This document shows, in pieces, positions 5,763-61,997 of a stretch of DNA of 64,000 nucleotides (position 1 is the first letter of the stretch; every line of letters begins with the position of its first letter). A program made the translations under genes and the position numbers. The stretch comes from an uncultured Alphaproteobacteria bacterium (GTDB lineage Bacteria > Pseudomonadota > Alphaproteobacteria > Rhodobacterales > Rhodobacteraceae), in the NCBI GenBank assembly GCA_902584635.1, contig CACIAQ010000003.1, positions 28,882 to 92,881 on the forward strand, read 5' to 3'. The notes below the pieces were generated by a model. The model saw only the letters and a list, made by a program, of their open reading frames with translations, did not search any database and was not told the origin of the DNA.

Positions 5763-5785
5763 GAAGCATATAAATCCAAATAGCT

Positions 5786-6778: not shown

Positions 6779-6819
6779 ACTAAACTCCTTATCATATTTC
6801 TCAGGCGCCTAGCAAAAAT

Positions 6820-6902
6820 CTAAACACCTTTCCTACGCCGGTACTAACCGGTTCAGGTTCAACGGGTCTGTTAAACATCTCAGCCATAAGGCACCCCGAG
6901 GT
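6820..6902 (-). promoter_or_regulatory. TPP riboswitch (THI element) upstream of thiBPQ
   Basis: Reverse strand reads CTCGGGGTGCC..GGCTGAGATG..AGACCCGTTGAACCTGAACCGGTTAGTACCGGCGTAGGAAAGGTG, matching the conserved TPP aptamer segments. Confidence 0.92.
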
Positions 6903-7086
6903 ATTTAAATGTTACAATTATAAAAATAGTTTTTCAACATCATTTAGCTAATTTTTTGGACAGAAATTGTATAAACGAATTTGCTTAAAACTTTTTGATA
7001 GGTTAAAAATAAATTTGCTAAATATTTACTTTCTAGTAATAACCTATTAGGCATGGATTTCAATTTTATACGAGGTTGACAATAAT

Positions 7087-7497: not shown

Positions 7498-7566
7498 GAC
7501 ACTTATTAAAAGACTAGATAATTGAAAAATGACCAAAACAAGAAAAGTATAGACAAAAAACGTCTC

Positions 7567-7689
7567 ATGAATAAGACATTGTCTAAAAAAAGCAATTCGA
7601 TTCAGGATAAAGTAATGAACTTGCGGTTGTCGAGACAAATTGATAAATCACGATTTGAAGCTGCATTTAAAACTCTCTTAAAAAAGTGA
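7567..7689 (+). CDS. Short basic hypothetical protein
   Basis: ATG-initiated 40 aa reading MNKTLSKKSNSIQDKVMNLRLSRQIDKSRFEAAFKTLLKK; no recognisable family. Confidence 0.3.
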   Translation: MNKTLSKKSNSIQDKVMNLRLSRQIDKSRFEAAFKTLLKK

Positions 7690-7700
7690 TATATTGAGAT

Positions 7701-9200: not shown

Positions 9201-9272
9201 TTTTTCACGATAGCTTGAGCGTAGTTCCGAATAGTATCTGATGCCATAACAAAGTAATTAAGTCCAATTTTT

Positions 9273-38655: not shown

Positions 38656-38730
38656 TGGGGTGTAGCCAAGCGGTAAGGCAGCGGGTTTTGATCCCGTGTA
38701 CCGTAGGTTCGAATCCTACCACCCCAGCCA
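38656..38730 (+). tRNA. tRNA-Gln (anticodon TTG), apparent attachment locus of the downstream array
   Basis: TGGGGTGTAGCCAAGCGGTAAGGCAGCGGGTTTTGATCCCGTGTACCGTAGGTTCGAATCCTACCACCCCAGCCA; complete cloverleaf with encoded CCA. Confidence 0.97.
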
Positions 38731-38829
38731 TTTCTTAAATGCAATAATTTACCCTTTTTATTTACCTTTACCGTTTGTTGGATTGTTCCCAGTCTACTCT
38801 TGGGGTCTTGCCAATAATCTTCCTAATAT

Positions 38830-39759
38830 CTATTGTGTCACTATTTCTCTTAATATTTTGAGTAGCCAAAGGTGCAATGGACTTTTTGCATCACGAACAT
38901 GCCTCACTGCATGAATTTGAAATTCTCCGCCTTCAATTGGCAGATCTCTATATGCAATATCAAATTTCTGGCCATTATCTTCTGCTACTCTTTTTGGCAG
39001 AGTCACGACTAGATCGGAATTTTCCAATATTGATAACGCTGGAAAAAGTGATGGAACAATTGTTTGAATGTCTATTTTTAAGCCTTGAAGATCCAAAGCA
39101 TGATCTAATAAATTTTTAATTCGCCCATAAGGGGATATTAAAAGGTGTTTTTCTTTAGCGATTTTCTCAAGAGTTAGCTTTCCTTTAAATATGCTATGAT
39201 CTTTGCGAGCAGCTAAAACATAATGTTCGCTGTGAAGTTTTTCAGCAATATAGGTTTTTCTTCCTCGTATTGGAAAATTGAAGTAGCCAATTGAAAGATC
39301 GATTTGCCCCTGGGATAATGCGTGAATTGCTCCATCGCTGTGGAGTGGGAAGGCATGTATATTGATGTTTGGACTGACTAAACGTAGCTTAGCAACAAGT
39401 TTAGGAATGATGTTGGTTAATTCATAATCAAATGCACCGATCCGCAAATCTGTTGTTGCTGAATTTGGAAAAAATTGCTCTGATCCCTCAATTGTTTGTG
39501 AAATTAAGCGGATTATATTTTCAACTTTTGGTTCTAATTCGCGTGCAAGTGCCGTTGGCTCCAATCCATGAGCACGACGCAGAAATAACGGGTCCTTAAA
39601 TAGAATTCGAAGTCGCTTTAATGCGTGGCTGACAGCTGGTTGTGTTAACCCCATTTCTTTTGCTACTGCTGTGGCCTTTTTATGCCGCATTGTTCTAAGA
39701 AAAACGAGTAGCATTGTGCTATCAATTAGTCTGATATTAATGTCATTTATATCTGTCAT
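38830..39759 (-). CDS. LysR-family transcriptional regulator
   Basis: MLLVFLRTMRHKKATAVAKEMGLTQPAVSHALKRLRILFKDPLFLRRAHGLEPT. Confidence 0.9.
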   Translation of the reverse strand: MTDINDINIRLIDSTMLLVFLRTMRHKKATAVAKEMGLTQPAVSHALKRLRILFKDPLFLRRAHGLEPTALARELEPKVENIIRLISQTIEGSEQFFPNSATTDLRIGAFDYELTNIIPKLVAKLRLVSPNINIHAFPLHSDGAIHALSQGQIDLSIGYFNFPIRGRKTYIAEKLHSEHYVLAARKDHSIFKGKLTLEKIAKEKHLLISPYGRIKNLLDHALDLQGLKIDIQTIVPSLFPALSILENSDLVVTLPKRVAEDNGQKFDIAYRDLPIEGGEFQIHAVRHVRDAKSPLHLWLLKILREIVTQ

Positions 39760-39908
39760 ATACCTAATTCATTATATAAAAAGTCTGAAATGGTCTATTT
39801 TTTTTTAGTATTTGTATCAATTATCGACTCTAGAGAAGAATCCACGTCTAGATCGAGAAAAAGTTTTCTAGTTTTTAATAGTGCAATCGAGGAAAATGGA
39901 GAAAAAAG

Positions 39909-41153
39909 ATGTTTTTAAAAAAATTAATTCTGACAAGTGCCGTAGCTACCTTAATTTGCTCGGCGGCATTTGCTAAAGACTGTGGCCCTTCTGGACAGTC
40001 AATTCGAATTCTTGCTAGTGACTTCCCTGCTATACATGCTGTCGCTGGAACAGCTGAGGAAAATTGTGCAGCTAGCGCGTCAGAGTTCACACGGAATCAT
40101 ACAACAGAAGCCCGTCAAATAATGAATGCTGCTCTAACACCAAATCCAGCTGAGTATACTAGCGTTATTGTAGCAAATTCTACCCTAACACAGCTTATGA
40201 ACGATGGCTTAGTTCGTCCTCTTAATGATTTGGTTGAAAAATATGGAGCTGATCTACCAAAGAATCTAATGATTACGATTGATGACAACATCATGGCTGT
40301 TGCTTTCATGGCCAACTCACAACATCTATTCTCCCGTAAGGATATTCTTGAAAAAGCCGGCATAAATAGTATCCCTGGCACGTACAGTGAGATGATTGCC
40401 GCAGCCCAAGCTATTCGTAAAGCGGGTATCATGGAATATCCAATCGTTATGAATATGAAAACAGGATGGAATGTTGGTGAGTCGTTTAACCTAGTTTTCC
40501 TTGCGCATGGAGGTGAGTTCTTTAAGCCTGGTACCGCTGAACCTACTGTTAATAGTGCAGCCGGTATTGCAGCTTTAAACACGCTCAAGGCGTTAGTTGA
40601 ATATGCACACCCCGATCATTTAACACAGGCCTCCAATGAAACTCAGGCAATATGGGAAGCTGGAGACGCTGCACTAGGAATTATGTGGGGATCTCGAGGA
40701 TCGGTGATTTTGGATGATGAAGGGTCATCAGAACAAGTGACATCAAATACTGTTCTTTCTTCAGCTCCATCAGTTAAGCCAGGTGGTATACCCGGTGCGA
40801 CACTGTGGTGGGATGGTTTTACTATTTCGAAAAACGTATCGGATGCAGAAGCAGAAGCTACATTTGCCGCTCTGGCAAGCTCATTGAACTCGGATATGGT
40901 TGCCGCCAATAACGATGATGCAATTTGGTTGCTCGAAGGCTTTAAGCCGGGTGCGGCTGCGGAAGGCGTATCTGCGACTGCTAAAGGTGGTGCGGTTCCA
41001 TACCCAATGCTTCCACAAATTGGGTTGTTGCACAATGCGCTAGGCTCAGAGTTATCAGAGTTCCTTAAAGGTAACGAAAGTGCAGAAAAAGCCCTTGCAG
41101 ATGTCGAAGCAGCTTATGTGACAGCTGCAAAAGAAAAAGGATTTCTTCAGTAG
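39909..41153 (+). CDS. ABC transporter extracellular solute-binding protein (sugar/family 1 type)
   Basis: Signal peptide; LMNDGLVRPLNDLVEKYG, WWDGFTISKNV; followed by two permeases. Confidence 0.85.
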   Translation: MFLKKLILTSAVATLICSAAFAKDCGPSGQSIRILASDFPAIHAVAGTAEENCAASASEFTRNHTTEARQIMNAALTPNPAEYTSVIVANSTLTQLMNDGLVRPLNDLVEKYGADLPKNLMITIDDNIMAVAFMANSQHLFSRKDILEKAGINSIPGTYSEMIAAAQAIRKAGIMEYPIVMNMKTGWNVGESFNLVFLAHGGEFFKPGTAEPTVNSAAGIAALNTLKALVEYAHPDHLTQASNETQAIWEAGDAALGIMWGSRGSVILDDEGSSEQVTSNTVLSSAPSVKPGGIPGATLWWDGFTISKNVSDAEAEATFAALASSLNSDMVAANNDDAIWLLEGFKPGAAAEGVSATAKGGAVPYPMLPQIGLLHNALGSELSEFLKGNESAEKALADVEAAYVTAAKEKGFLQ

Positions 41154-41242
41154 GTTCGTTTAACTGGAGAGAACTTGGTGAGGGGGATCGTTAAAACTCC
41201 AGTCCCCCCCACCGTGTTTTTGTTTAAAAACGGATGTAAAGG

Positions 41243-42274
41243 GTGAAACACCGTACTTTTTTTTGGTTCATACTACCTACGCTTTCGGCAATGATTTTGT
41301 TCATTGCAATTCCTATAGGTTCCGCTTTTGTGCAATCTCTTTTTATACAGCATGACCAGGTATTAGTTTTGTCGAAAAATTGTGGTCCTTTTGGCTGTAG
41401 GGAGACAACTTCAGTGGATATCGAAGCAACCAAGGAGCTGCGTCAAGATTCACCGTTAGGTAAGTTTAATGGCATAGGTACTTATCTAAACCGCTCACAT
41501 CTAGCATTTGCTGAAGTTGGTAATGCTTGGGCAGTCTCACGGACCTTTAGTGGCTTCCTAAACGAAGTCTTAGATCTTCCTTTCTATGGTGCCTTAATGT
41601 TCACATTAACGTATACTGCCGTTGTTACGCCGTTGGTTTTGCTACTGGGTTTGGCAATTGCTATTGGGGTCAACGGCTTACCAAATATAATAAAGGGACC
41701 ATCCATATTTGTCTCACTTTTGCCGTTCCTAGTAACACCACTGGTTGGATCTTTGATTTTATTTTGGATGGTTGATGGAGATGGAATTATTGGGGCCACT
41801 ATTCAACTGATTTTCAATGATCCGGACCTAAGCCTCAAAGCTTCAACTGGGTTGACCTGGACTATGTTAATTGTCTACGGAATATGGCATACGCTCCCAT
41901 TTAGTTTTATAGTGTTTTATGCTGGTCTCCAAACTGTCCCAGTTGATACGCTAGAGGCTGCTGAGATTGACGGAGCTACAAAGTGGCAGTGCACAGTTTA
42001 CGTCGTAGTCCCCCACCTAGTACCATTGATTACCTTTGTTACATTGATGCTGTTGATGGATAACTTTAGAGTCTTTGAACCGATTGTAAGCTTTTCAGCT
42101 GAAGCACACGCTCGGTCACTTAGCTGGATCATTTTTAATGATCTTCGTGAGAGTGGAAACCCCCTTTATGGATCAGCTGGGGCAACATCGATTTTGACAA
42201 TTATTGGGGTAATCTTCCTGTTGACACCAGTTCTGATCCGTAATTGGCGAGATTTTAAGCTTAGGAGGCTATGA
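41243..42274 (+). CDS. ABC transporter permease (MalF-like)
   Basis: EAAEIDGATKWQCTVYVVVPHLVPLITFVTLM EAA loop. Confidence 0.88.
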   Translation: MKHRTFFWFILPTLSAMILFIAIPIGSAFVQSLFIQHDQVLVLSKNCGPFGCRETTSVDIEATKELRQDSPLGKFNGIGTYLNRSHLAFAEVGNAWAVSRTFSGFLNEVLDLPFYGALMFTLTYTAVVTPLVLLLGLAIAIGVNGLPNIIKGPSIFVSLLPFLVTPLVGSLILFWMVDGDGIIGATIQLIFNDPDLSLKASTGLTWTMLIVYGIWHTLPFSFIVFYAGLQTVPVDTLEAAEIDGATKWQCTVYVVVPHLVPLITFVTLMLLMDNFRVFEPIVSFSAEAHARSLSWIIFNDLRESGNPLYGSAGATSILTIIGVIFLLTPVLIRNWRDFKLRRL

Positions 42275-42284
42275 AACTACTATC

Positions 42285-43166
42285 ATGACAAGAACAGCAC
42301 GTACTCCTATCAAATTTTTTAGCGTCCTTTCATTTAGCCTAGTTGCTCTATGGCTGCTAATAGCTGCCTTCCCTTTCCTTTGGACATTCTGGGGTAGTTT
42401 CAAAGTTCAATCTGATTTTTTTTCAAAAGCAGATTGGATGTATGCACTTTGGGGAACTAACACCGCAAGAGAAACTGGTAATGCATTCACTGGCTCCGGG
42501 TATTACGGTGCCTGGATAATTGAAGGTTTCTGGAAGAATTTTCTTAACTCTGGGATAGTAGTGTTTTTTACTGTTATAATTTCTCTCACATTTGGAACAC
42601 TGGGTGGCTATGCTCTGGCACGTTCTGGATTTCGTTACGCTTTTTGGATATTGATGGCCGCTCTAGTTTTCCGTGCAATGCCACACATCACGTTAGTATC
42701 TGGGTATCTACTACCGTTTTTTGAATGGAATATTTGGGGGTATTTACCAACCACCATTATTGTACTAGTTGCGATGAACCAGCCATTTACCATTTGGATG
42801 TTACATTCATTCTTCCTAAACGTACCCAAAGATATGGATGAAAGTGCAATGATCGATGGTTGCACACGTTTTGAAGCATTTCGGTATGTTATTGTTCCCG
42901 TCATGTGGCCTGGGGTCATAACTACAGGGCTTTTTAGTTTTCTTTTAGCCTATAACGACTTCACAGTAACTGTAATGCTTCTCAGTGAAGAAAATGAGAC
43001 GATCATTCCCGCTATAAATAGCTTCCTTGGCACCACACAGGTTGAAGGTAAGGTAATGTATGCAGTAGCCGCCGTAGTCTCAGTAACGGCACCAATATTG
43101 GTGTTAATTCTGTTTTTTCAACGTCAAATTGTAAGTGGATTAACTGCTGGAGCGGTTAAGGGTTAG
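42285..43166 (+). CDS. ABC transporter permease (MalG-like)
   Basis: GGYALARSGFRYAF; MDESAMIDGCTRFEAFRYVIVPVMWPGVITTGLFSFLLAYNDF EAA loop. Confidence 0.88.
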   Translation: MTRTARTPIKFFSVLSFSLVALWLLIAAFPFLWTFWGSFKVQSDFFSKADWMYALWGTNTARETGNAFTGSGYYGAWIIEGFWKNFLNSGIVVFFTVIISLTFGTLGGYALARSGFRYAFWILMAALVFRAMPHITLVSGYLLPFFEWNIWGYLPTTIIVLVAMNQPFTIWMLHSFFLNVPKDMDESAMIDGCTRFEAFRYVIVPVMWPGVITTGLFSFLLAYNDFTVTVMLLSEENETIIPAINSFLGTTQVEGKVMYAVAAVVSVTAPILVLILFFQRQIVSGLTAGAVKG

Positions 43167-43170
43167 ATAA

Positions 43171-44241
43171 ATGAATAACAATAAAGTCAAGGATGACATA
43201 AACTCAACAAATAAAGAAATTATTGCAAAGCTCCGTAAAGCACAGGCCGATTTCACAGAGGTAGGTGTTCGGAATGCACTTAATGATTTATTGCTGACTG
43301 ACGCAGTTGTCCACATGCCATACCCGTTTGGCGATTTAGTAGGTCCGGACGACTTTTTTGATACTTGCTATGCGCCATTATTTGAGGCAATGCCAGATCT
43401 TGAGCGGCGGGACTGGATCGTAATCGGTGGACGGACTGAGCATGGTGATAACTGGATTGGGTGTGGTGGCCATTATGTTGGTACATTTGTTGGGCCTTGG
43501 CTTGATATTCCGCCAACTGGTCATTTGACACACATGAGGTTTCACGAATTTTACCGATTTGAACAAGGGCGAGCGGTAGAGGTTCAGGCACTCTGGGATA
43601 TTCCTGAGGTTATGATCCAGGCTAATGCTTGGCCAATGGCGCCTTCTTTGGGATTAGAGTTTTGTATTCCAGGTCCAGCTACTAACGATGGCTTAGTTTC
43701 AGGGCCTTGGGATGATAAACATTCTAATGCATCGTGTGACCTTGTTAAGACTATGCTTCAACATATGAAAAAACATCCTTCACAAGGTGATGTAGATATA
43801 ATGAAAATGCCCCACTTTTGGGATAACAGAGTTAACTGGTATGGGCCAGCTGGTATTGGGACTGCACGTGGAATTGCTGGCTTTAGAAACTGGCATCAAA
43901 TTCCATTTATTAATGCTATGCCAGACAGAGGAAAATATGTGGATGAAATAACATATCATTTTTTTGGTGATAAAGATTATGCTGCAGTCACTGGCTGGCC
44001 TAACATGATACAGACAATAACTAATGACGGTTGGATGGGAATAGCGCCAACAGGAAAACGTATAACAATGAAATCGCTTGATTTCTGGCGTATTGAAAGG
44101 GGTAAAATTCGTGAAAACTGGGTAATGGTAGATCTTTTAGATGTCTACAATCAACTAAATATTGATGTCTTTGCACGTATGAATGAATTCAATAAGGCCC
44201 GCATAAAAGGTAGATTATCTTTCCCAATAGGAGAGTATTAA
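43171..44241 (+). CDS. SnoaL-like (NTF2 fold) ester cyclase-type protein, tandem domain
   Basis: Repeated NTF2-like pattern: GHYVGTFVGPWLDIPPTGHLTHMRFHEFYRFEQGRAVEVQALWDIPEVM and GWMGIAPTGKRITMKSLDFWRIERGKIRENWVMVDLLDVYNQL. Confidence 0.75.
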   Translation: MNNNKVKDDINSTNKEIIAKLRKAQADFTEVGVRNALNDLLLTDAVVHMPYPFGDLVGPDDFFDTCYAPLFEAMPDLERRDWIVIGGRTEHGDNWIGCGGHYVGTFVGPWLDIPPTGHLTHMRFHEFYRFEQGRAVEVQALWDIPEVMIQANAWPMAPSLGLEFCIPGPATNDGLVSGPWDDKHSNASCDLVKTMLQHMKKHPSQGDVDIMKMPHFWDNRVNWYGPAGIGTARGIAGFRNWHQIPFINAMPDRGKYVDEITYHFFGDKDYAAVTGWPNMIQTITNDGWMGIAPTGKRITMKSLDFWRIERGKIRENWVMVDLLDVYNQLNIDVFARMNEFNKARIKGRLSFPIGEY

Positions 44242-44252
44242 ATGATGAGGCA

Positions 44253-45245
44253 TTGACCATGAAAGGATTCGATCCAAAATTTAGAAACTTTCCACACTAT
44301 ATTTTAGGTATAACAAAAGAAATTTGGGAAGAACGCAAAATTGCAAAGCTTAATGATTATTATGCAAATGATATAGTGGTGCGTTCACCTGCCTCAGTGG
44401 TAATTGGCAATGACAATGTCATTGCTGCAACCATGGCTACATTAGCAGAATTTCCCGATCGTACCTTGCTAGGAGAGGATGTGATCTGGTGTACTGCAGA
44501 GGGAGAAGGCATGCTTTCATCACACCGTCTAATATCTACTGCCACACACACATATCATGGCCTCTATGGAGCTCCATCAGGAAAATATCTACAATACCGA
44601 ATTATTGCTGACTGTCATGCTACTAATAATAAAATTGACGACGAATGGTTAATTCGTGATCAGGGTGCAATAGTTCGTCAATTGGGTTTAGATCCAAAAG
44701 ATTATGCAAGTAATCTTATCGAACGTGAAGGTGGTCCAAAAAAATGCATTAAACCTTATACGCCTGCAAATGATACCGTTGGCCCTTATTTAGGAAAAGG
44801 CAATACTAATATCTGGGGGCAACGCCTTGCCAGCACAATTGAAAAAATAATGCATTACGAGTTAGATACTATATTTAATGAATACGATCGCTCTGCTCAA
44901 CTGGAATATCCAGGAGGCATTACTACTCGCAGTTTTAAAGGAGCAGATAGTTTTTGGACTGGTCTCAGATCTAGCTTCCCACATGCAAAATTTAAAGTTC
45001 ACCATGTTATTGGGCGTGATGACAAAAACATGCCTCCTCGTGCTGCAGTTCGGTGGTCTCTTCATGGAAAACACGATGGATTTGGGGCATTCAGTGAGCC
45101 CACCGGTGCAGAAGTTTTTGTCCTTGGCATTACCCATGCAGAGTATGGAGAATTAATTCAAGGGGAACCAAAGATCAGACGTGAATGGACTCTATTTGAT
45201 GAGGTATCAATATGGAAACAAATACTAATGTATAAAAAGTATTAA
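44253..45245 (+). CDS. SnoaL-like (NTF2 fold) protein
   Basis: EERKIAKLNDYYANDIVVRSPASVVIGNDNVIAATMATLAEFPDRTLLGEDVIW; related to the preceding gene. Confidence 0.7.
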   Translation: MTMKGFDPKFRNFPHYILGITKEIWEERKIAKLNDYYANDIVVRSPASVVIGNDNVIAATMATLAEFPDRTLLGEDVIWCTAEGEGMLSSHRLISTATHTYHGLYGAPSGKYLQYRIIADCHATNNKIDDEWLIRDQGAIVRQLGLDPKDYASNLIEREGGPKKCIKPYTPANDTVGPYLGKGNTNIWGQRLASTIEKIMHYELDTIFNEYDRSAQLEYPGGITTRSFKGADSFWTGLRSSFPHAKFKVHHVIGRDDKNMPPRAAVRWSLHGKHDGFGAFSEPTGAEVFVLGITHAEYGELIQGEPKIRREWTLFDEVSIWKQILMYKKY

Positions 45246-45405
45246 ATAAGTAAATATAACATTGTGTAAGTTATTTCAGATTGTATTAAATGATTCTAGC
45301 GTTCATAGAGAACATATGAATATGGAGCGAACACGTTAAATCGCGATTTAATAGTATACAGTCACAGTCAAATGATGGAATTGTGTGGATTTTAGGAGAT
45401 AATTA

Positions 45406-45759
45406 TTGAGTAGAAATATTGTAAAAATTCTAGATAAAGGTTTTTCCGATATTTCTGCTGGCGAGAAAATGCTTATCTCTTCGCCAGAGAAAATTTCAGA
45501 GTTTATTTTTACGATACCCAGGGGTTCTTATTTAAGCATTAAAGAACTAAGGCGTGGACTAGCATTAAAAGCTGGGGCAGATAATACTTGTCCAGTAACA
45601 ACTGGGATATTTCTAAGAATGGCAATTGAACTGCATAAAGATGATGAAAATTTTCCTTACTGGAGAGTTGTTGATGAAAAACACCCTGTAGTGAAAAAGT
45701 TAAACCTTGATGAAAATCAAATTAAAAAGAGGAGAGTTGATGAGGGAATACCGTACTAA
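45406..45759 (+). CDS. MGMT/ATL-like DNA-binding-domain protein (tentative)
   Basis: IPRGSYLSIKELRRGLALKAGADNTCPVTTGIFLRMAIE...PYWRVVDEKHPVVKKL resembles MGMT-family TCPxTTGIF...PYWR proteins; TTG start. Confidence 0.45.
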   Translation: MSRNIVKILDKGFSDISAGEKMLISSPEKISEFIFTIPRGSYLSIKELRRGLALKAGADNTCPVTTGIFLRMAIELHKDDENFPYWRVVDEKHPVVKKLNLDENQIKKRRVDEGIPY

Positions 45760-45878
45760 GAAAAACCTACACAACCCCACAAATCGTTCACAACGAACCA
45801 TCGTCACAGTTTAGCATATTGTTGACTAGGGTAAACTTGATCGGCGATTTTTGCAGAAATGGATGTTGGTCACCTATT

Positions 45879-46049
45879 TTTGACAACACTTTTGACAACA
45901 GTTTTTGTGATTTTCCTGATAACGCATAAGAAACATGAGAAGGATAAGAACTATTTTAAAGGGTTATGAGAAAACTGATAACTCCTGATAACAATATCCA
46001 CGGGTTTTGATCCCGTGTACCGTAGGTTCGAATCCTACCACCCCAGCCA
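45879..46049 (+). repeat. Array repeat R1 (arm block + tRNA-Gln 3' 49 nt)
   Basis: TTTTGACAACACTTTTGACAACAG...CCTGATAAC...ACTATTTTAAAGGGTTATGAG..., then 49/49 nt identical to tRNA-Gln 38682-38730. Confidence 0.95.
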
Positions 46050-46075
46050 TTTCAGAAATCATTTCTTAAGTTTAT

Positions 46076-46564
46076 TTAAACGTCGAATACCGATACTTTT
46101 TTCATCATTACCTCTTGTACCCACTTAAGATCAGGTACTTGATCAACCTGCCAACCGGGAGGACAGGCAACTTTCTTTCCAGACCTTAATGAAAATAAAA
46201 AAGCTCTAAAATTTGTGACAATATACTTTTCTGTTCCGGATTGAGATCTTTCACCCTTAAACTCAGATGAAAATAGACCCACTAGTTTTCTTATAGACCC
46301 ATCATCTTTGAATTTGACCTTTTGATACAAATATCCTCTTATAACTTCCTCCGCGCTCTCTCCTGCTTCAACTTCGACTAACGAACCCAAAATTTTCTCA
46401 CTGCACTGTTGTAGAAATTCTGCGGAGATCTCATTGTAATGAACTGCAATTTCATCTGTATATTTTTTTATAATAACATTGAGCGGCGCTGAATAAAATA
46501 AGGACTCCCGAGCAGCATTTGCACAAAAAATACAAAGTATCCATCCTGGACAATGCAAGGCCAT
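46076..46564 (-). CDS. Hypothetical protein, sole gene of cassette R1-R2
   Basis: 162 aa ORF, only sizeable ORF between R1 and R2; no recognisable family. Confidence 0.55.
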   Translation of the reverse strand: MALHCPGWILCIFCANAARESLFYSAPLNVIIKKYTDEIAVHYNEISAEFLQQCSEKILGSLVEVEAGESAEEVIRGYLYQKVKFKDDGSIRKLVGLFSSEFKGERSQSGTEKYIVTNFRAFLFSLRSGKKVACPPGWQVDQVPDLKWVQEVMMKKVSVFDV

Positions 46565-46887
46565 CCAACTATCCTCTCTATTGACTTAAGTTCATAATAT
46601 GAACTAATCTGAAAAAAAAAAACAAAAACCTCACGTCAACTCTGTTTCAATTCATCAAATACAAATTCAATATTCTAAAAATTCTGAGTTGAGCAGTTTT
46701 TTTAGCTTCGTTTTTCTTTCTTGTTATGAGAAAGTAACGCGCTTTATTACAACAATCCGGATTTTTAAAAAGCTATAATTTCGAGATTTGTTTTAATCAA
46801 GAGATGAAACTTAGCAAATGATCGACCAAAACATGTGAATAACAATTTCAAAGACTTAAATATTTTCCTAAACACATTTTGGCTAAT

Positions 46888-47058
46888 TTTGACAACACTT
46901 TTGACAACAGTTTTCGTGATTTTCCTGATAACTTATCAGAAGCATCAGAAGGATAAGAACTATTTTAAAGAGTTATGAGAATCCTGATAACTCCTGATAA
47001 CAATATCCACGGGTTTTGATCCCGTGTACCGTAGGTTCGAATCCTGCCACCCCAGCCA
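46888..47058 (+). repeat. Array repeat R2
   Basis: Arm block + tRNA-Gln 3' part, 48/49 nt identical (CTACC to CTGCC). Confidence 0.95.
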
Positions 47059-47156
47059 TTTTCTTTAAGAAGTTAAGTTTGCTGGTTCCTTAGAATATTC
47101 TTCAGATTTTGAGAGCTATGAAATGTTTTTAAATAGGGATCACATCCCTTTTAAAA

Positions 47157-48098
47157 TCAATTAAATTTTATTACAAGTCGACCTCTGACCCCACCACTTT
47201 CAAATCGTTTATGTGCTTCCGACACTTGAGACGGACTAAATGTATCGGCCAACCTCAATGAAACTTTCTTTGCGTTTACAAGCTTCCTTAAATCATCCAA
47301 TTTTTCATACATGCAATCTTGAGTTCTTACCCATGTTTGCGTAAAATTTATATCACGCTCACCTGTCCCTTGATAACCTCTAACTGCGGTGAAAGAGCCT
47401 CCATTTTTGACTGCAGCAACTGCTTTTTCATTTAATAAAGCGCCGTCTGCTAAGCCGTCTACGCCCTCGGGAAACCGTTCCAATATATGTTTAATAAATT
47501 CTTCTCCTCTTGGAAGCGATAGATCTGCACCAAGTGATTTAATTAAATTTTGATCTTTTTCTGACGTATCTGCTATCACATATAGACCTAAAGTTTTTGC
47601 AATTTGGATCATATAACCACCGTAGGCTCCTGCAGAGCCAGTAACTGCTAACTTATCGCCTGAGTTCAAGTTCAAAAGTTCTAGAGAAAGCTTTGCCGTT
47701 AAGCCATTCATTGGTAAAGTACACGCTTCTTCAAAACTGACCCCTTCGGGAATTGGAACCACTGCTCCTGACTTTAGAGCAATTTGTTCGCGATATGCCC
47801 CGTGTTGACCATTTGGTACGACCATTGCCATGACCGCGTCGCCTTTTTTGAGATGAGTTTTGACGTTTTCTCCAATCTCCATTACTTTCCCAGAAACATC
47901 CATTCCCGGAACATATGGAGGATCATAAGGTTTTTGTCTTTCTGCTATACCTCCATTACGCGCTAAAATATCTGTAGGATTTATAGCTGCGCAAAACACC
48001 TGTACCAGTATCTCATCCGCCTCAGCTTTTACCTCAGGCACTTCAATAAGCTCTAGCACTTCAGGTCCGCCGTGCTTCATTAAACCAATCGCAAGCAT
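47157..48098 (-). CDS. NADP-dependent quinone oxidoreductase-type zinc-independent MDR alcohol dehydrogenase
   Basis: MKHGGPEVLELIEVPEVKAEADEILVQVFCAAINPTDILARNG, AVTGSAGAYGGYMIQIAKTLG. Confidence 0.85.
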   Translation of the reverse strand: MLAIGLMKHGGPEVLELIEVPEVKAEADEILVQVFCAAINPTDILARNGGIAERQKPYDPPYVPGMDVSGKVMEIGENVKTHLKKGDAVMAMVVPNGQHGAYREQIALKSGAVVPIPEGVSFEEACTLPMNGLTAKLSLELLNLNSGDKLAVTGSAGAYGGYMIQIAKTLGLYVIADTSEKDQNLIKSLGADLSLPRGEEFIKHILERFPEGVDGLADGALLNEKAVAAVKNGGSFTAVRGYQGTGERDINFTQTWVRTQDCMYEKLDDLRKLVNAKKVSLRLADTFSPSQVSEAHKRFESGGVRGRLVIKFN

Positions 48099-48164
48099 CT
48101 GTACCCCTTTGGTTACGATAGATAGTTGATTGATTTATGTTACACTATAAAAAGAGAATTTTAA

Positions 48165-48917
48165 ATGATGTTACCAGACGATCTTACCCCTGAGCAATTT
48201 AGTAAAAAACCAGCAGTCCTGAAAGCTCTTAACAATCCTCGTTCTCCGAGCAGTGTTTTGAATTATATGTGTGGCTGCGATATTAATAATCCTATTGATA
48301 GAAAAAGCCTTTTTTACGATGAAACAGTAGAACCACTATTAGGCATATGGTTTAGAAGTGGAACTGCTTTAGACGATATTTGCAAACCATTTTCATCTGT
48401 TATTCGCGAATTGAAAGCTGATCCACAAACTTTGGTGGAGGATAAATGGTTCACAATTGAGGGCCAGGTTGCTAGAGTGCTCTTAGCAGATCAACTATCT
48501 CGCTCATGTTTTCGAGGGACGGCTGAAGCTTTTTCGTATGACTACATTGGACGCGAGCTCGTTCGAGACCTAGTTGGTAGAGAGAAAGTCCAACAAACTT
48601 TAAAATTGCCTCCAGCACTACTGTATTTACTTCCCTGGGCTTTGGCCCATTCAGAAGAAATAGTCGACCTTGTTCGCGCATGCGAAATAATTGACATGGC
48701 AATTGGTGCTTATCCTAATTTCACTCTATTTGAAGGGAGAAATAAGAAGGCGGTCGATCAACATAGGCAGGTTTTAGAAAAATTTGGGCGTTACCCACAA
48801 AGAAATTCAGAGTTTGGAAGAGCTAATACCCCTGAAGAAGAAAAATGGCTCAATGATAAAGAGAATTTACCAATTTGGGCAGGTGGCAATCTTTCTTTTG
48901 ATCAAAAAATTAGATGA
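48165..48917 (+). CDS. DUF924 family protein
   Basis: LGIWFRSGTALDDICKPF...VARVLLADQLSRSCFRGTAEAFSYDYIGRELVRDL...HRQVLEKFGRYPQRN. Confidence 0.8.
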   Translation: MMLPDDLTPEQFSKKPAVLKALNNPRSPSSVLNYMCGCDINNPIDRKSLFYDETVEPLLGIWFRSGTALDDICKPFSSVIRELKADPQTLVEDKWFTIEGQVARVLLADQLSRSCFRGTAEAFSYDYIGRELVRDLVGREKVQQTLKLPPALLYLLPWALAHSEEIVDLVRACEIIDMAIGAYPNFTLFEGRNKKAVDQHRQVLEKFGRYPQRNSEFGRANTPEEEKWLNDKENLPIWAGGNLSFDQKIR

Positions 48918-48975
48918 GACGAAATTTATAAATCTTAGCTATATCTTTATTTTTATTATTCTATAAATTGAGCGA

Positions 48976-50370
48976 ATGCTTGAAACAAAATCTATTCCTG
49001 AAGAATTACAATTCTCAATAAAAGAAAAAGGGTATGACAAACTAACAACAGTTCAAAGCTTAGTGCTTGATCCTGGTAACAATGATAAAGATCTTCTGGT
49101 GAGCTCCCAAACAGGCTCTGGCAAAACACTTGCTTATGGGTTGTCAATATCGGTTGCTGGACTCAAAGAAATTCTGGGTTCAGATAACAAACTTAAAACC
49201 CTAATCGTTACCCCCACACGAGAATTAGCTTTACAGGTTTTTAATGAGTTAGCATGGCTATTTTCTAAGACTGCGATCAGAATCTCAACGGCGATCGGTG
49301 GGATGGACATAAAAAAAGAAAGAAAAAATATTTCAAAAGGAGTTGATCTTTTAATAGGAACACCAGGAAGGATTAATGACCATATACGGCGGAAAACTTT
49401 CCACTTAAATTATCTAAGATCGCTTGTCCTAGATGAAGCTGATGAAATGCTTGATTTGGGCTTTAAACAAGACTTAGATATGATTGTAAATCAAAGTCCT
49501 GCAAATAAGAGGGTACTTATGTTTTCAGCAACTATCCCAAAAAAAATATTGTCATTAGCATCAAAGTACCAAAAAAACGCAGTCAGAATTGAAGCTACTA
49601 GTCTCGGCAAAGCACACACTGATATTTCTTATGAAACATATTTTGTAAAAAAACATGATATTGAAAACGCAATATTCAACTTTCTCCGATTTCATGATGA
49701 TAAGACTATTATTATTTTTTGCTCTACTAGGAATGCTGTAACGCATATCTCTTCAAGAATATTAAATAGAGGTTTTACTGTTGTCTCCTTATATGGTGCT
49801 TTGAATCAATCAGAGAGGTTCAAGGCATTACAATCCATAAAAAATGGTAGGTGTAAGATATGTGTTGCGACAGACGTAGCAGCAAGAGGTATTGACCTGG
49901 TTAACCTGGATATAGTGATACATGCTGAACTCCCTCATAATCCAGAAACTTTAATACACAGAAGTGGGCGAACCGGGAGAGCTGGGAATAAGGGTCGAAG
50001 TATTCTTTTTTGTTCACCTGGCGAGAAAAGAAAATATGAAAAATTGATCGATTCTGCAAAGGTAAGACCGTTTATTAATAAATTTCTTTCACAAGAAGAA
50101 ATAGAACATAAAGATAATGAAAAGATCATAAACTACCTTTCAAGAAACAAAAAAAATAGTTCTAGTGAACTTAAGTTTGCTAATGAGCTATTATTGCGGT
50201 TTTCTAATGAAGATTTGGCCTTAGCGCTAATTGAAAATTTCAAAGGAAAACTACCTCCGATAGAGGAGGTAGAAAGTCTTGGCGAAGAACAAATTGTTCA
50301 AATGAAAAATGATCGAAAAAAAAAGAAAAGAAGCAACCAAAATTCCAGGCGTAACTTTAGAAAAAGATAG
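48976..50370 (+). CDS. DEAD-box ATP-dependent RNA helicase
   Basis: SSQTGSGKTLAYGL, PTRELALQ, LVLDEADEMLDLGF, FSATIP, VATDVAARGIDL, HRSGRTGRAGNKG. Confidence 0.95.
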   Translation: MLETKSIPEELQFSIKEKGYDKLTTVQSLVLDPGNNDKDLLVSSQTGSGKTLAYGLSISVAGLKEILGSDNKLKTLIVTPTRELALQVFNELAWLFSKTAIRISTAIGGMDIKKERKNISKGVDLLIGTPGRINDHIRRKTFHLNYLRSLVLDEADEMLDLGFKQDLDMIVNQSPANKRVLMFSATIPKKILSLASKYQKNAVRIEATSLGKAHTDISYETYFVKKHDIENAIFNFLRFHDDKTIIIFCSTRNAVTHISSRILNRGFTVVSLYGALNQSERFKALQSIKNGRCKICVATDVAARGIDLVNLDIVIHAELPHNPETLIHRSGRTGRAGNKGRSILFCSPGEKRKYEKLIDSAKVRPFINKFLSQEEIEHKDNEKIINYLSRNKKNSSSELKFANELLLRFSNEDLALALIENFKGKLPPIEEVESLGEEQIVQMKNDRKKKKRSNQNSRRNFRKR

Positions 50371-50375
50371 GAATA

Positions 50376-50545
50376 TTGACAACAATTTTGACAACACTTT
50401 TCGTGATTTTCCTGATAACGCATAAGAAACAAGAGAAACATAAGAACTATTTTAAAGGGTTATGAAAATGCTGATAACTCCTGATAACAATATCCACGGG
50501 TTTTGATCCCGTGTACCGTAGGTTCGAATCCTACCACCCCAGCCA
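50376..50545 (+). repeat. Array repeat R3
   Basis: TTGACAACAATTTTGACAACACTTTTCGTGATTTTCCTGATAACGCATAAG... and 49/49 nt of tRNA-Gln 3' part. Confidence 0.95.
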
Positions 50546-52047: not shown

Positions 52048-52218
52048 TTTGACAACACTTTTGACAACAGTTTTTGTGATTTTCCTGATAACACAAAAGA
52101 AGCATGATAAGCATAAAAACTATTTTAAAGGGTTATGAGTAAACTGATAACTCCTGATAACAATATCCACGGGTTTTGATCCCGTGTACCGTAGGTTCGA
52201 ATCCTACCACCCCAGCCA
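52048..52218 (+). repeat. Array repeat R4
   Basis: Arm block + 49/49 nt of tRNA-Gln 3' part. Confidence 0.95.
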
Positions 52219-52321: not shown

Positions 52322-54202
52322 ATGACAGACGACAAGATAGAACGAAAGATCGCCGTTATCTTTGCAACAGATGTTGTTGGGTATTCCAAACATATGGAGC
52401 GAGATGAGGATGAGACACTAAAAAGCTTCAGAGCCTGTAAAAAAATTCTTGAGAAGCTATTTGAAGAACACGGAGGAACAATTTTTAATACAGCTGGAGA
52501 CTCTGTATTAGCTGAGTTTCCCAGCGCAGTGTCTGCTGTGGTTTGTGCCTCTGAATTTCAGGAATTAATAAAAGAAAGAAATGATAACAGGCAAAGTCGT
52601 GTAAATCTCCAATTTCGTATAGGCATAAATATGGGTGATGTCGTTAAAGAGGATAGTAATCTTTATGGAGATGGTGTAAATATTGCGGCACGTTTAGAAG
52701 CACTTGCTCAACCAAATGGTATATGCCTTTCAAAGAGTATTTATGACTTGGTAAACAAAAAAACAAAGTTTCTTTTTAGTGACTTAGGAGAGCAAAAAGT
52801 AAAAGAAAACCTATTCCATGCTTTTGATTTGTTACTTGATCCTTCTCAAAAAAGAACGATAAAAAGTAGTGAAAATTCCTCCGTTCGAACCCTAGCTGCT
52901 ATCGCAACTTTGTTGGTTATAACGATCGGTGGATTAATCTACTTTTTCAGTTTCCAAACTGATCCACAAAAATTTGCAATGCGGATAGATACGTCAAAAG
53001 AAAATATTTTAGGGAAAACCTTATTAATTCTCCCTTTTGATAATGTGTCAGATAGTTCAGATATGGCGTCTATGAAAAAGAGCATTATAGACCACCTTAT
53101 CTCGTCTATTTCATCTACAGTTATGCTTAACATTGTTCCGAGACAGAAAAGCTATGTATTAAAAGAAAAATTTCAAACGGTGGAAGATTTGTATCGAGAG
53201 ACCGGAGCTAGTTTTATTTTGAGTGGTAGTGCACTCGGTTCGGAAGAAAACTTTAGAATAAGTTTGGAATTACTGGATGTTAGAAAAGAAAAAATCTTAT
53301 GGTCGGCAAATTATGAATTTTCTAAAAGTAATCTATTCTCCACATTAGATGAAATAGAATTTTCTGTTCGACGGATGATACTTTCTAAACTGACGATGGG
53401 AGAAGAAGCTACTCAATACTTAGAAAAACATTTTATTAATTCTGAAGATTTTTTAGAAATCCTCAGATTAAGAGTTGCTCTACTTAAAGAAGGAACATCA
53501 ATAGAAAGAAACCACTCTGAACCATTCCGGATGGTCTTGGAAAAAAATCCGGCCAGCTCAGGTGCTAACTATTTATATGCGAGAAGCTTGATCAGACAAC
53601 TTGGGGCATATAGAGAAAATAGTAATGTCGAAATAAAAGATATTTTCAAAGCAAATTCTAGAGCTCTTGAATTAGACCCAGGAAATGCTCCAGCTTATGC
53701 CTTTAAAGCCGCTTTAAAAAAAAGATATCAATTAAAATTTGATGAAACCTTGCTTAGAACAGCTTTGAGATATGGTGAGGATAATTATCTCGTTTTAGAG
53801 ACTGTTGCAGATGTCTACAGGCTGCAAGCAAAACCAGAAGAAGCGATAACTTATTATAAGCAAGCCCTTGAAGTTGCACCCTACGGTCCTTCAGCCTTGA
53901 AGTTAGCCCTCTTCGCGGCGTACTTGGAAGCCAATCGAATTAAAGATGCCAGAGAGCTTGCCAAAGAAATGATATCATCTGATAAGTTCCTAGAGTTTTG
54001 GGGACAGTTGTGTCTAATATATATCGAGGCCATCAATGGCGAAAAGATATCAAGTAGCCAAATGTATAAAGATTTTATAGAAAAAAATAAAATTTCACTA
54101 GAAGATCTGCTTCGAAAAATTGTAACAAGCCCTATGGCTAGAAGAGAGTATTGGGTAAGAGAAGAATTAATAAAGTCATTAAAGAGTATTGCTGGATCAT
54201 AG
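52322..54202 (+). CDS. Class III adenylate/guanylate cyclase with TM helix and TPR region
   Basis: KIAVIFATDVVGYSKHMERDEDETL, FNTAGDSVLAEF, FRIGINMGDVVKEDSNLYGDGVNIAARLEALAQPNGICLS; TM near aa 195; C-terminal TPR-like helices. Confidence 0.88.
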   Translation: MTDDKIERKIAVIFATDVVGYSKHMERDEDETLKSFRACKKILEKLFEEHGGTIFNTAGDSVLAEFPSAVSAVVCASEFQELIKERNDNRQSRVNLQFRIGINMGDVVKEDSNLYGDGVNIAARLEALAQPNGICLSKSIYDLVNKKTKFLFSDLGEQKVKENLFHAFDLLLDPSQKRTIKSSENSSVRTLAAIATLLVITIGGLIYFFSFQTDPQKFAMRIDTSKENILGKTLLILPFDNVSDSSDMASMKKSIIDHLISSISSTVMLNIVPRQKSYVLKEKFQTVEDLYRETGASFILSGSALGSEENFRISLELLDVRKEKILWSANYEFSKSNLFSTLDEIEFSVRRMILSKLTMGEEATQYLEKHFINSEDFLEILRLRVALLKEGTSIERNHSEPFRMVLEKNPASSGANYLYARSLIRQLGAYRENSNVEIKDIFKANSRALELDPGNAPAYAFKAALKKRYQLKFDETLLRTALRYGEDNYLVLETVADVYRLQAKPEEAITYYKQALEVAPYGPSALKLALFAAYLEANRIKDARELAKEMISSDKFLEFWGQLCLIYIEAINGEKISSSQMYKDFIEKNKISLEDLLRKIVTSPMARREYWVREELIKSLKSIAGS

Positions 54203-54258: not shown

Positions 54259-54426
54259 TTTGACAACACTTTTGACAACATTTTTCGTGATTTTCCTGAT
54301 AACGCATAAGAAGCATGAGAACCATAAGGACTATTTTGAAGAGTTATAATAATCCTGATAACTCCTGATAACAATATCCACGTTTTTGATCCCATGTACC
54401 TTAGTTCCAATCCTACCAACCAGCCA
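54259..54426 (+). repeat. Array repeat R5 (degenerate)
   Basis: Arm block retained; tRNA part CGTTTTTGATCCCATGTACCTTAGTTCCAATCCTACCAACCAGCCA has substitutions and small deletions. Confidence 0.9.
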
Positions 54427-56217: not shown

Positions 56218-56380
56218 TTTTGAAAACACTATTGACAACATTTTTCGTGATTTTCCTGATAACTTATATGAACCATGAGAAGCATAAGAACTGTTATGAA
56301 GGGTTATGAGAATCCTGATAACAATATCCACGGGGGTTTGATCGCGTGTACCGTAGGTTCGAAACCTACCACCCCAGCCA
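56218..56380 (+). repeat. Array repeat R6 (degenerate, one 10-bp arm unit missing)
   Basis: Arm block with a single GAATCCTGATAACAATATCC before the core (other copies have two CCTGATAAC units), then CGGGGGTTTGATCGCGTGTACCGTAGGTTCGAAACCTACCACCCCAGCCA. Confidence 0.9.
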
Positions 56381-56543
56381 CTTCTTAAAAGCAGTTATTA
56401 ACTATTTTTTATTGATCCTTCTCGACTAGCAGATTGTTTTCATGCTACCGCTTTAATCTTGATATCAAGACTTCCTACAACACTTTGACATAAAGAGAAT
56501 TGATTTTTTAACACATTAATATTACGCTATTCATGTATTTAAT

Positions 56544-58064
56544 ATGACTATATTGGATAATAACTTAAGATTGGAAATAGTATATAATAGCACTCACTCT
56601 TTTAAGAAAATTGTAAATCTATTAAGATCAATTTTATTTTTCTTCTTTATTTCTTCCTTATCAAGTGTTTCAGCAAAACCTCCAATTTCTGCAGATGAGT
56701 TAATTAATTATCTAGACGGCAAAGAGAATTGGTATGGAGTATATATTGCCACAAAAAAACTAGGCTATGCTTATGAAAAATGGAAAAAAGAATTGTATGA
56801 AGGGGACCCCGTCCTCAAGGCAGAAGTAGGTTTTGTACTAAATACAGATTACTACAAAGCCTTTTTTGGGGACCAGTCAACTTTTTCTCTCAAAGGCGAT
56901 AAAAACCTGATATCCCAGTCAGTATACGAAAAATATGAAGATCATGATGAAAACGGCAAAAAGATAGGGTCCGATGAAAAGCAAACAAATGTCACAATAG
57001 AGGGGACAGACTATGTTGTTCAGACAATTAAGAACAAAGAGAGTACTGAAGTCCGGATACCTTTTTTCCCAATAGATATCAGGAAATATCATTTCGATGT
57101 ATTTATTTTAAATAGCGATTTTGCTAGTGAGTTAGGGACCACAAAATTCGTATCCGGAATTGATCTTGACAGAAATAAACCAGAATTCTCTATCATAAAA
57201 AAAATACATCGAAATAATATTTTGAAGAATGGTAAATTAATCCCTAAAACAAGCATTTTAGCTGTACAAGGCTTGAATACGCAGTTTGAAGTTGAAGCCT
57301 TGATGGAATATCAAGGATTGGAAGCAATACGGATGGAGATGCTAGGAAACTGGCTTTTAGTGCGTGAACCAGAGCAAAAGGCAAAAGACCCGGGGGAAAC
57401 CCTAAAACTTAAGGACATAGAAAACTTTCCTGTTGATCGAATAATTAGATATAAAGATATAAGTGAATTAAAGTTGAAAATCGATGGTATCGGAGCCGAA
57501 GAAATCATTGTGGGAAATGATAGACAGCAAATTCTATCATCAAGTAGCAACAGCATCGAAATTTTATTAAAAAAGAACTATCAGATCTCTAATTATCAAG
57601 AAGACAATATTCAATTGTATCTAGAGTCTACTGAAAACTTACCACTTAACTTACCAGAGCTAAAAAAAATAAATCCGATTGAAGACAATAATCTTTCAAA
57701 TCTCAAGAAAAGTGAGATCCTTAATCGTTTCGTTCACAATTTCATCGAATATACTGTGAGACCAGAGGGGCCGGAGTTAAGGGCAATAATCACAGAAAAA
57801 AAAGGTGACTGCAGCGAGTATGCTATCCTGATGACAGCTCTCGCTCGATTGAATGGTATACCTGCCAGAGAAGTGTCAGGGTATGCCTACACTGATGAAA
57901 ACAATTCCCCCTCCTTCGGGGCTCATGCTTGGGTTGAATTATATATCGATGGAAGCTGGAGAGAGTTTGACCCCACCTGGGATGAAACCAAACTTGGCAT
58001 CGAACATATTCTGTTTAAAGACGCAACCATGTTAGTTGGTGGTTCAATTGAAGTTTTGGATTAA
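56544..58064 (+). CDS. Exported transglutaminase-like domain protein
   Basis: Signal-like N-terminus; C-terminal KGDCSEYAILMTALARLNGIPAREVSGYAY...FGAHAWVELYIDGSWREFDPTW (Cys-His-Asp triad). Confidence 0.85.
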   Translation: MTILDNNLRLEIVYNSTHSFKKIVNLLRSILFFFFISSLSSVSAKPPISADELINYLDGKENWYGVYIATKKLGYAYEKWKKELYEGDPVLKAEVGFVLNTDYYKAFFGDQSTFSLKGDKNLISQSVYEKYEDHDENGKKIGSDEKQTNVTIEGTDYVVQTIKNKESTEVRIPFFPIDIRKYHFDVFILNSDFASELGTTKFVSGIDLDRNKPEFSIIKKIHRNNILKNGKLIPKTSILAVQGLNTQFEVEALMEYQGLEAIRMEMLGNWLLVREPEQKAKDPGETLKLKDIENFPVDRIIRYKDISELKLKIDGIGAEEIIVGNDRQQILSSSSNSIEILLKKNYQISNYQEDNIQLYLESTENLPLNLPELKKINPIEDNNLSNLKKSEILNRFVHNFIEYTVRPEGPELRAIITEKKGDCSEYAILMTALARLNGIPAREVSGYAYTDENNSPSFGAHAWVELYIDGSWREFDPTWDETKLGIEHILFKDATMLVGGSIEVLD

Positions 58065-58238
58065 ATCGCCATAAATAATTAGAAAAATAAAAATATCTAA
58101 TTCAATATTTCCTTCACCACTTTCCCGTTTTTATAAAATTTAGTACAACCGACGTTCTCTGTCATATCTCACATTTTAAACAAGGATTTGTCTATACAAT
58201 CACAATCAAGTGGTTCCCTTTTGTTTTTTTTGTAGTGT

Positions 58239-58549
58239 TTAATTTTGGTATATTATAATCCATTCTTTGAATCTGTTTATTTTATCTGGCGTCACGTAAA
58301 AAATATTACTTTCCCGTTCTTTCTTAATCATTTCGCAGTTTAACTTAAAGTATCCAATTACCGCAGAGCACATCTGATTAGACCATTTTCCATTTTTTTG
58401 GCCATTTAGGTAATGACCTTCCTCTTCAACTTCTTTCCACTGACCAACTTTCAAACCCTCTTTGTGAATACCACTTGCTTCTCTTTTATGACCCTACCTA
58501 GTGTAGATGACACTTTCATAAAATCCACGTAGAACGCCATCTTGAAAAT
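58239..58549 (-). pseudogene. Degraded YwqK/MORN-like fragment
   Basis: Reverse frame reads FQDGVLRGFYESVIYTR*GHKREASGIHKEGLKVGQWKEVEEEGHYLNGQKNGKWSNQMCS with an in-frame stop; abuts truncated repeat R7. Confidence 0.5.
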
Positions 58550-58550
58550 T

Positions 58551-58700
58551 AGTTTTCGTGATTTTCCTGATAACGCATACGAAGCATGAGAAAGATAAGA
58601 ACTATTTTAAAGGGTTATGAGAATCCTGATAACTCCTGATAACAATATCCATGGGTTTTGATCCCGTGTACAGTATGTTGGAATCCTACCACCCCAGCCA
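58551..58700 (+). repeat. Array repeat R7 (left part truncated)
   Basis: Starts at AGTTTTCGTGATTTTCCTGATAACGCATACGAAGC..., lacking the TTTTGACAACA pair; tRNA part with a few substitutions. Confidence 0.9.
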
Positions 58701-58878
58701 TCTCTAGAAAAAGACAATAACTATATTTTATTGGAAGAATAGCGTTATTGACTGCTACCTCGATTGATTCTTTAAATAGAAGTTTTTATCAACGTGACAA
58801 CACTTTGACAGTACTTTGTCTACCAGGTTTTTAATTCGTGGTTTAGACTAATACTGAATAGCAATTTTTGGGGAAAAC

Positions 58879-59191: not shown

Positions 59192-60005
59192 ATGACTGAC
59201 TTTGATGATTTTAAGAATTTTGAAAAAGATGGATGGGAGGAACGTGCTTCAACATATGGTAATTGGGCTGTTACTAGCCAAATAGTACCAATCGCAGTTG
59301 AAGCTCTAAATTTATCTAATGACGATAATGTTTTAGAATTAGCATCTGGACCTGGTTACGGCACAAGTGAAATCTCAAAAAAAACAAAAAACGTTTTGGG
59401 GACAGATTTTGCTGCATCGATGGTCCAGGAAGCAAAAAATCTTTTTCCCACCTTGAAGTTCGAACAGGCAGACGCAGAAAATCTTAAGTTTGAAGATAAC
59501 AGCTTTGATAAGGTATTTTGTACTTTTGGAGTTCTTCACTTTGCTCATCCTGATAAAGCTATTAGTGAAGTACGACGAGTACTTAAAGCTAGAGGAATTT
59601 TTGTATTCACTGTTTGGGCGCCTGTGGAAGAGTCTCCTTTTTTTGGAATTCTTTCAGAAGTGATTAGCCAGCTCGGTAGCTTTGAAGTTGGTTTACCCGA
59701 CGCCCCCCCCAATAGATGATTTTAGCGACAAAGAAAGGGCATCAGTCAAGCTTTTGGCGCAAGGATTGGATATGATAAATTTTCAAGCTGAAGATAATGT
59801 CTTCGATACAGGAGCTTCTTCATCTAAGATGCCGACCGTATATAGAGAAGTTGGAGTTAGATCAAAGGGCTTGTTAGATGCTCAAGACCCAAAGAAGCTT
59901 CCTGAAATAGAAGAAGAACTGGTTTCCAGGTTTAAAAAATTCGAAGAAGCAGGAACCGTGAAAATGCCCTTCCCTTATAGAATAATAACTGCTAGAAAAA
60001 TTTGA
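59192..60005 (+). pseudogene. Class I SAM-dependent methyltransferase, split by an apparent frameshift at a C8 tract
   Basis: VLELASGPGYGTSEISKKTKNVLGTDFAASMVQEAK...FDKVFCTFGVLHFAHPDKAISEVRRVLK; frames 59192-59719 and 59682-60005 join as GLPDAPPIDDFSDKERAS if one C is removed at 59703-59710. Confidence 0.75.
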
Positions 60006-60171
60006 CAACTCTTTTGACAACAGTTTTCGTGATTTTCCTGATAACGCATAAGACGAATGAGAAGGATAGGAACTATTTTGAAGGGTTATGAGAATCCTGA
60101 TAACTCCTGATAACAATATCCACGGTTCTTGATCCCGTTTACCATAGGTTCGAATCCTACCACCCCAGCAA
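60001..60171 (+). repeat. Array repeat R8 (degenerate)
   Basis: TTTGACAACTCTTTTGACAACAGTTTTCGTGATTTTCCTGATAACGCATAAG..., tRNA part CGGTTCTTGATCCCGTTTACCATAGGTTCGAATCCTACCACCCCAGCAA. Confidence 0.92.
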
Positions 60172-61834: not shown

Positions 61835-61997
61835 TTTGACATCAGTTTTGACAACAGTTTTCGTGATTTTCCTGATCAAACATAAGAAGCATAAGAACTA
61901 TTTTAAAGGGTTATGAGAATCCTTATAACTCCTTATAACAATATCCACGGGTTTTTGATCCCGTGTACCGTAGGTTCAAATGCTACCACCCCAGCCA
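61835..61997 (+). repeat. Array repeat R9 (degenerate)
   Basis: TTTGACATCAGTTTTGACAACAGTTTTCGTGATTTTCCTGATCAAACATAAGAAGC...CCTTATAACTCCTTATAACAATATCCACGGGTTTTTGATCCCGTGTACCGTAGGTTCAAATGCTACCACCCCAGCCA. Confidence 0.92.

Follow-up and report, generated by a model that had tools for sequence, protein, structure and literature searches.

Additive flexible genomic islands that carry repeats of a tRNA 3′ end have been reported at tRNA-Lys in Ca. Methylopumilus (PMC10872708), in Ca. Actinomarinales (PMC7771536) and in Alteromonas (PMC5217437), according to the portions of these papers available to us. In Dehalococcoides, islands stand in tandem at ssrA with direct repeats of its 3′ end, and 15 of them lack an integration module, for which reason it was proposed that they are cis-mobilizable elements (PMC3146451). 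Tycheposons, as the accessible text describes them, are cargo elements anchored at tRNA genes in marine bacteria and equipped with tyrosine recombinases (PMC10872708, PMC11389934).

Here we describe an array of cassettes behind a tRNA-Gln gene in the window, by which we mean the whole 64,000-nucleotide stretch analysed; it forms the terminal part of contig C3 in an alphaproteobacterial genome of 2.0 Mb and 77.5% completeness. The 22 congeners compared, all incomplete genomes, are uncultured Alphaproteobacteria AG-... isolates, which from their names we take to be marine single cells, and Rickettsiales bacterium SP3058. In integrons, small cassettes stand in an ordered series, a recombination site closes each of them, and new ones enter mostly at one end. 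The array is likewise an ordered series of small site-ended cassettes but differs from integrons in its tRNA target and in having no integrase beside it, contig C3 yielding no Phage_integrase match. Like tycheposons, in so far as the available descriptions go, the units here are anchored at a tRNA gene; unlike them, they are mostly 0.4–7 kb and without a recombinase of their own, the exception being one unit of one congener.

Repeats and cassettes in the window

Downstream of tRNA-Gln(TTG), a profile search of the window found nine repeats of ~170 bp (Table 1), each composed of a 121-bp arm followed by 49 bp that run from CGGG to CCA. The arm is missing in the tRNA gene. Sequence comparison confirmed the original prediction that identity between the tRNA gene and the repeats starts at 38682 and continues to CCA, which ends at 38730. 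Scanning the window with CGGGTTTTGATCCCGT gave exact matches at 38682, 46001, 47010, 50497 and 52170 and matches with 1–2 mismatches at 58652, 60123 and 61949, compared to a mean of 0.03 matches in the shuffled window; repeats 5 and 6, both decayed, were found by the profile search beyond these matches.

The original prediction also placed a perfect inverted repeat over the anticodon loop at 46000–46049. The inverted repeat is real, while that interval begins one base inside its 5′ arm; moreover, what had been described covers just the tRNA-derived portion of a ~170-bp repeat, which also has a 121-bp element-specific arm. The pattern CACGGG-N7-CCCGTG is perfect in four of the nine window repeats and decayed in the rest. 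We rejected the palindrome as significant alone, since 31 inverted repeats of 6 bp with a 7-bp loop occur in the window against ~23 expected from base composition. Rather, the signal comes from the recurrence of the core and from the 121-bp arm on every copy.

Table 1. Features of the array, in window coordinates
Feature	Position	Strand	Basis and remarks
Intact tRNA-Gln(TTG), proposed integration target	38656..38730	+	ARAGORN; borders the array in 14 congener contigs too
49-bp block common to tRNA gene and repeats	38682..38730	+	Sequence comparison
Cassette F5, 7,149 bp	38731..45879	.	Cross-genome comparison; same ends in several congeners
Repeat 1, 121-bp arm and tRNA block; holds the predicted inverted repeat	45880..46049	+	Profile search
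Perfect core CACGGG-TTTTGAT-CCCGTG, in repeat 1	45999..46017	+	Exact pattern scan
Cassette F10	46050..46888	.	tRNA-adjacent in G019; interior in G000 and G004
Repeat 2, perfect core from 47008	46889..47058	+	Profile search, pattern scan
Lost boundary (approximate place) between two cassettes separate in congeners	48919..48940	.	
Repeat 3, perfect core from 50495	50376..50545	+	Profile search, pattern scan
Repeat 4, perfect core from 52168	52049..52218	+	Profile search, pattern scan
Repeat 5, core decayed	54260..54425	+	Profile search
Repeat 6, core decayed	56220..56380	+	Profile search
Second arm site, decayed (5 mismatches), 94 bp after CCA	56474..56492	+	
Repeat 7, core with one change	58538..58700	+	CGGGTTTTGATCCCGT scan, profile search
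Second arm site, decayed (3 mismatches), 94 bp after CCA	58794..58812	+	
Repeat 8, core with two changes	60002..60169	+	CGGGTTTTGATCCCGT scan, profile search
Repeat 9, core with two changes	61836..61997	+	CGGGTTTTGATCCCGT scan, profile search

The cargo of cassette F5 includes a LysR regulator, an ABC transporter and SnoaL-like proteins, among others. The lost boundary in Table 1 was placed from partial matches of the unit at 47059–50375 to families F6 and F2. Related adenylate/guanylate cyclase proteins are present in two different window cassettes (52322–54202 and 62031–63983), and another relative is found in a G018 cassette. The start of contig C28 (1–341) matches the end of the F4 cassette, which has trehalose-phosphate synthase and phosphatase-like genes. 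A repeat and then the common right flank come next, and the window array probably has its distal end on C28.

Conservation of the core

All 15 tRNA genes have G at position −1 and 65 of the 67 array copies have A, as expected if, as had been proposed, the A is the element-borne base. The symmetric arms are also kept in other genomes, being perfect in 31 of the 67 array copies. Mismatches in the tRNA block increase with rank from the tRNA (Spearman 0.48 over 65 repeats that are not independent, one array beginning at an arm-less repeat rather than at the tRNA), an apparent age gradient that fits insertion at the tRNA end.

Most of the relatives read carry another anticodon stem-loop, for example GCGGT-TTTTGGT-ACCGT, and CGGG-TTTTGAT-CCCGTG is also found in one genome of another family. 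In the tRNA-Gln of the related genomes read, position 37 is mostly G and the anticodon stem is unlike that of this genus. The 3′ half of this genus's tRNA-Gln might have been replaced by incoming elements.

Cassettes across congeners and the position of exchange

A 160-bp query matched 20 of the 22 congeners, G010 only via its tRNA gene, and arm-bearing repeats were present in 19 of 22. To delimit cassettes, neighbouring fetched stretches were merged, brought into one orientation and divided at each repeat. Individual cassettes are shared by up to eleven genomes, in which their ranks and neighbours differ. The right cassette end, at the arm start, is stable; left ends are stable in F5 and F10 and variable in F2, F6, F8 and F12, whose first 25–45 bp differ between genomes and whose arm end is constant. 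In 70 of 115 shared-cassette pairs with flank data, the cassettes resembled each other more closely than did the chromosomal sequence next to the tRNA, and many cassettes, not all, therefore look recently transferred. An empty site, with the array's right flank beside tRNA-Gln, was not found in other genera, where the loci spanned only ~3 kb.

Cassette F5 is tRNA-adjacent in G000, G003, G010 and G011, whereas G006 and G009 have it in the interior of the array. The sequence at its left junction is GGCAG/CGGG when tRNA-adjacent and ATCCA/CGGG when interior, and its right-side neighbours differ between genomes. Among the four genomes with tRNA-adjacent F5, identity upstream is 89–93%, with the first mismatch 29–48 bp before CGGG, and downstream it is ~99% in the six genome pairs, with bins mostly at 98–100%. 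This shift in identity, from about 91% to about 99% within the tRNA gene, puts the F5 left breakpoint there. Because base −1 is G in the tRNA genes and A in the array, the 5′ limit of exchange falls between 38681 and 38682. The comparison of cassette junctions between genomes thus supports an attachment core at the anticodon stem-loop, as had been predicted.

Rare shared alleles in repeat columns 1–100 follow the left cassette and those in columns 133–138 and 151–160 the right one, which is suggestive of a 3′ limit, in counts that ignore kinship and include several right-side cases that are junctions with the common chromosomal flank. Since the 49-bp block is nearly invariant, exchange cannot be placed inside it; exchange within the loop TTTTGAT (columns 126–132) would be compatible with these data. 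Three other approaches to crossover mapping were set aside. A maximum-likelihood fit by identity pointed to column 164 and was rejected because undecayed recent repeats bias the baseline; the same bias left pair identity among junctions with a common left or right cassette weak, and three-way breakpoint fits offered few clean cases.

Not every rearrangement uses the core. G006 carries F5 followed directly by F3, versus F5, F2 and F3 in G017, and the G006 junction matches the G017 F5 arm to column 64–67 and thereafter the G017 F2/F3 junction; of the 13 informative columns, one departs from this pattern. The break lies inside the arm, ~55 bp upstream of the core. The original prediction is partly supported. 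The G006 pattern is what a loss of F2 by homologous recombination between two arms would produce, and site-specific integration and homologous recombination probably both shape the array. Caution is warranted, as homologous recombination between att repeats can mimic site-specific cassette loss.

Arm sites and a candidate integrase

The arm consensus contains two copies of TTGACAAC and three of CTGATAAC. In five units a second pair, TTGACAACACTTTGACAAC, is found 94–96 bp after CCA, so that paired TTGACAAC arm sites lie on both sides of the core. With up to 3 mismatches, the second arm site has six matches in 1.12 Mb (both strands); five are at the fixed offset and the sixth falls outside the cassettes. 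The four copies with at most 1 mismatch are all in tRNA-adjacent units (G002, G007, G009 and G013). Near-intact second arm sites follow 4 of the 19 arm-less starts, 15 of which are true tRNA genes, versus 0 of 92 other starts (p = 6 × 10−4). No second arm site was found in F5, a cassette that is recently transferred by appearance, and the exact core and arm patterns had no match in viral contigs. In the attP of lambda-type arm-binding integrases, arm sites flank the core on both sides. By analogy, we infer that a circle formed from a cassette would place the arm pairs around the core.

A tyrosine integrase of 389 aa is encoded in the tRNA-adjacent unit on contig C8 of G009; it has the full set of catalytic motifs (R, K, HxxR, H and Y) and a sub-threshold match to an arm-binding domain. 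The unit also encodes a 101-aa protein resembling phage O-type replication initiators and, by our reading of its sequence, what appears to be a 665-aa flagellin-like protein. Two HTH proteins, one of them initiator-like, were noted in the same unit (reverse complement 3561–9947 of its stretch). The unit starts at the tRNA, reaches a canonical repeat arm and has an intact second arm site; it ends off-contig inside the next repeat, its right end being visible to column 52 only. Its left end aligns without gaps to that of the window cassette at 56381–58537 (96 of 130 positions identical; score 62, versus 8 for the best of 1000 shuffles). No other array unit read carries a tyrosine recombinase. 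No close homologue of the integrase was found in the other congeners searched, and it had no match in viral contigs or, in a search without a positive control, in 101 genomes of the family; phage integrase matches were all below 60% identity, ~30% in the best among the matches listed. Elsewhere in the window genome, on contig C24, the reading frame of an integrase is apparently split in two ORFs, probably a decayed island.

Discussion

We observed an array whose cassettes recur with the same ends, a 5′ limit of exchange, a defined arm geometry and an integrase-bearing unit. These data are best read as serial tRNA-targeted integration of mostly integrase-less cassettes, and it is likely that the repeat is an attachment site at which a tyrosine integrase inserts cassettes into the anticodon stem-loop of tRNA-Gln. 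A cassette circle would hold a P arm, with its paired TTGACAAC and three CTGATAAC, then the core CACGGG-TTTTGAT-CCCGTG, then the remainder of the tRNA 3′ half; in some circles a P′ arm would follow after another 94 bp. By exchange at the stem-loop, the tRNA would be rebuilt with the incoming 3′ half and the old 3′ half pushed downstream, joined to the cassette arm, and repeated insertion at the tRNA would produce the array. Cassettes without an integrase may be moved in trans by rare helpers such as the G009 element, and homologous recombination between repeats may also delete or shuffle them. That the G009 integrase acts on these sites, in trans and with exchange within the loop, is what we infer from the sequences. 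Counting against this reading, the integrase is found in one congener only, in a unit cut by the contig end, the apparently recent F5 is without the second arm site, the F2 loss broke in the arm instead of the core, and no circular cassette form was seen in the data. A more specific proposal, which we advance tentatively, is that non-autonomous cassettes with one-sided sites (P arm and anticodon core) pass among species of a marine genus with integrase supplied in trans by rare satellite-like helpers, loss of the P′ arm locking the insert in place.

The clean breakpoint in the arm that separates F5/F3 of G006 from G017, the decay of many repeats and the lack of an integrase both in the window array and on the contig that holds it would also be expected if old integrations founded the array and homologous recombination, among the 170-bp repeats and with imported stretches of array, is now the main process that shuffles it, the core being mostly a relic. 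Homologous import should leave scattered flank breakpoints, however, whereas the F5 left breakpoint lies inside the tRNA gene in four chromosomal backgrounds and F5 has differing right-side neighbours; we regard a relic core as possible but unlikely. It is doubtful, too, that XerC/D or another genomic integrase acts on the sites with the G009 integrase as cargo. XerC/D-sized recombinases are common in the genus, further integrases lie on other contigs of the window genome, and the restriction of the G009 integrase to one congener is in keeping with a cargo gene. Its unit, however, extends from the tRNA to the arm with an intact second arm site, and paired arm sites flanking a core are expected of an arm-binding integrase rather than of Xer. 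The intergenic position and stem-loop of the repeats could also suit a terminator or a tRNA-derived regulatory RNA whose place between cassettes is incidental, but the arm is missing in the tRNA gene, the boundaries of the moving units coincide with the repeats, and distal copies decay, unlike a conserved regulatory element, making such a role very improbable.

Like the Dehalococcoides islands, the units follow one another in tandem downstream of an RNA gene, with repeats of the gene's 3′ end between them; the Dehalococcoides system differs in its ssrA target, 20-bp repeat and serine recombinase (PMC3146451). The units also resemble cis-mobilizable elements and their accretion, as far as the portion of that report available to us describes them (PMC3146451), in being integrase-less, bounded by att sites and in tandem: att-like repeats flank them on both sides, and a recombinase gene is present only in the G009 C8 unit. 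As a difference from that concept, the arrays read contained no conjugative partner.

Gene exchange in small-genome marine bacteria happens, yet its moving parts are rarely visible. With cassettes whose ends are defined, a map of attP, a candidate for the integrase and rearrangements that arose naturally in some 20 species, the array makes trans-mobilisation of small tRNA-gene cargo directly testable. The closest counterpart is the additive island. There, as in the sections accessible to us, variable cassettes lie beside a tRNA, each with a tRNA 3′ repeat, and differ between close relatives; here, tRNA 3′ repeats bound each cassette beside an intact tRNA, and cassette content at the locus varies among close relatives. 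The repeats of additive islands are short, 20 bp in Methylopumilus (PMC10872708), and the text of those reports available to us does not describe such anatomy, whereas this array has a conserved 121-bp arm, a 49-bp block that extends as far as the anticodon stem, a second set of arm sites and, in one congener, a candidate integrase. The array is thus best read as a variant of the known additive genomic islands in which the anatomy of the site is unusually clear; new here are the second set of arm sites, which puts TTGACAAC pairs to either side of the core, and the integrase in the tRNA-adjacent unit of one congener.
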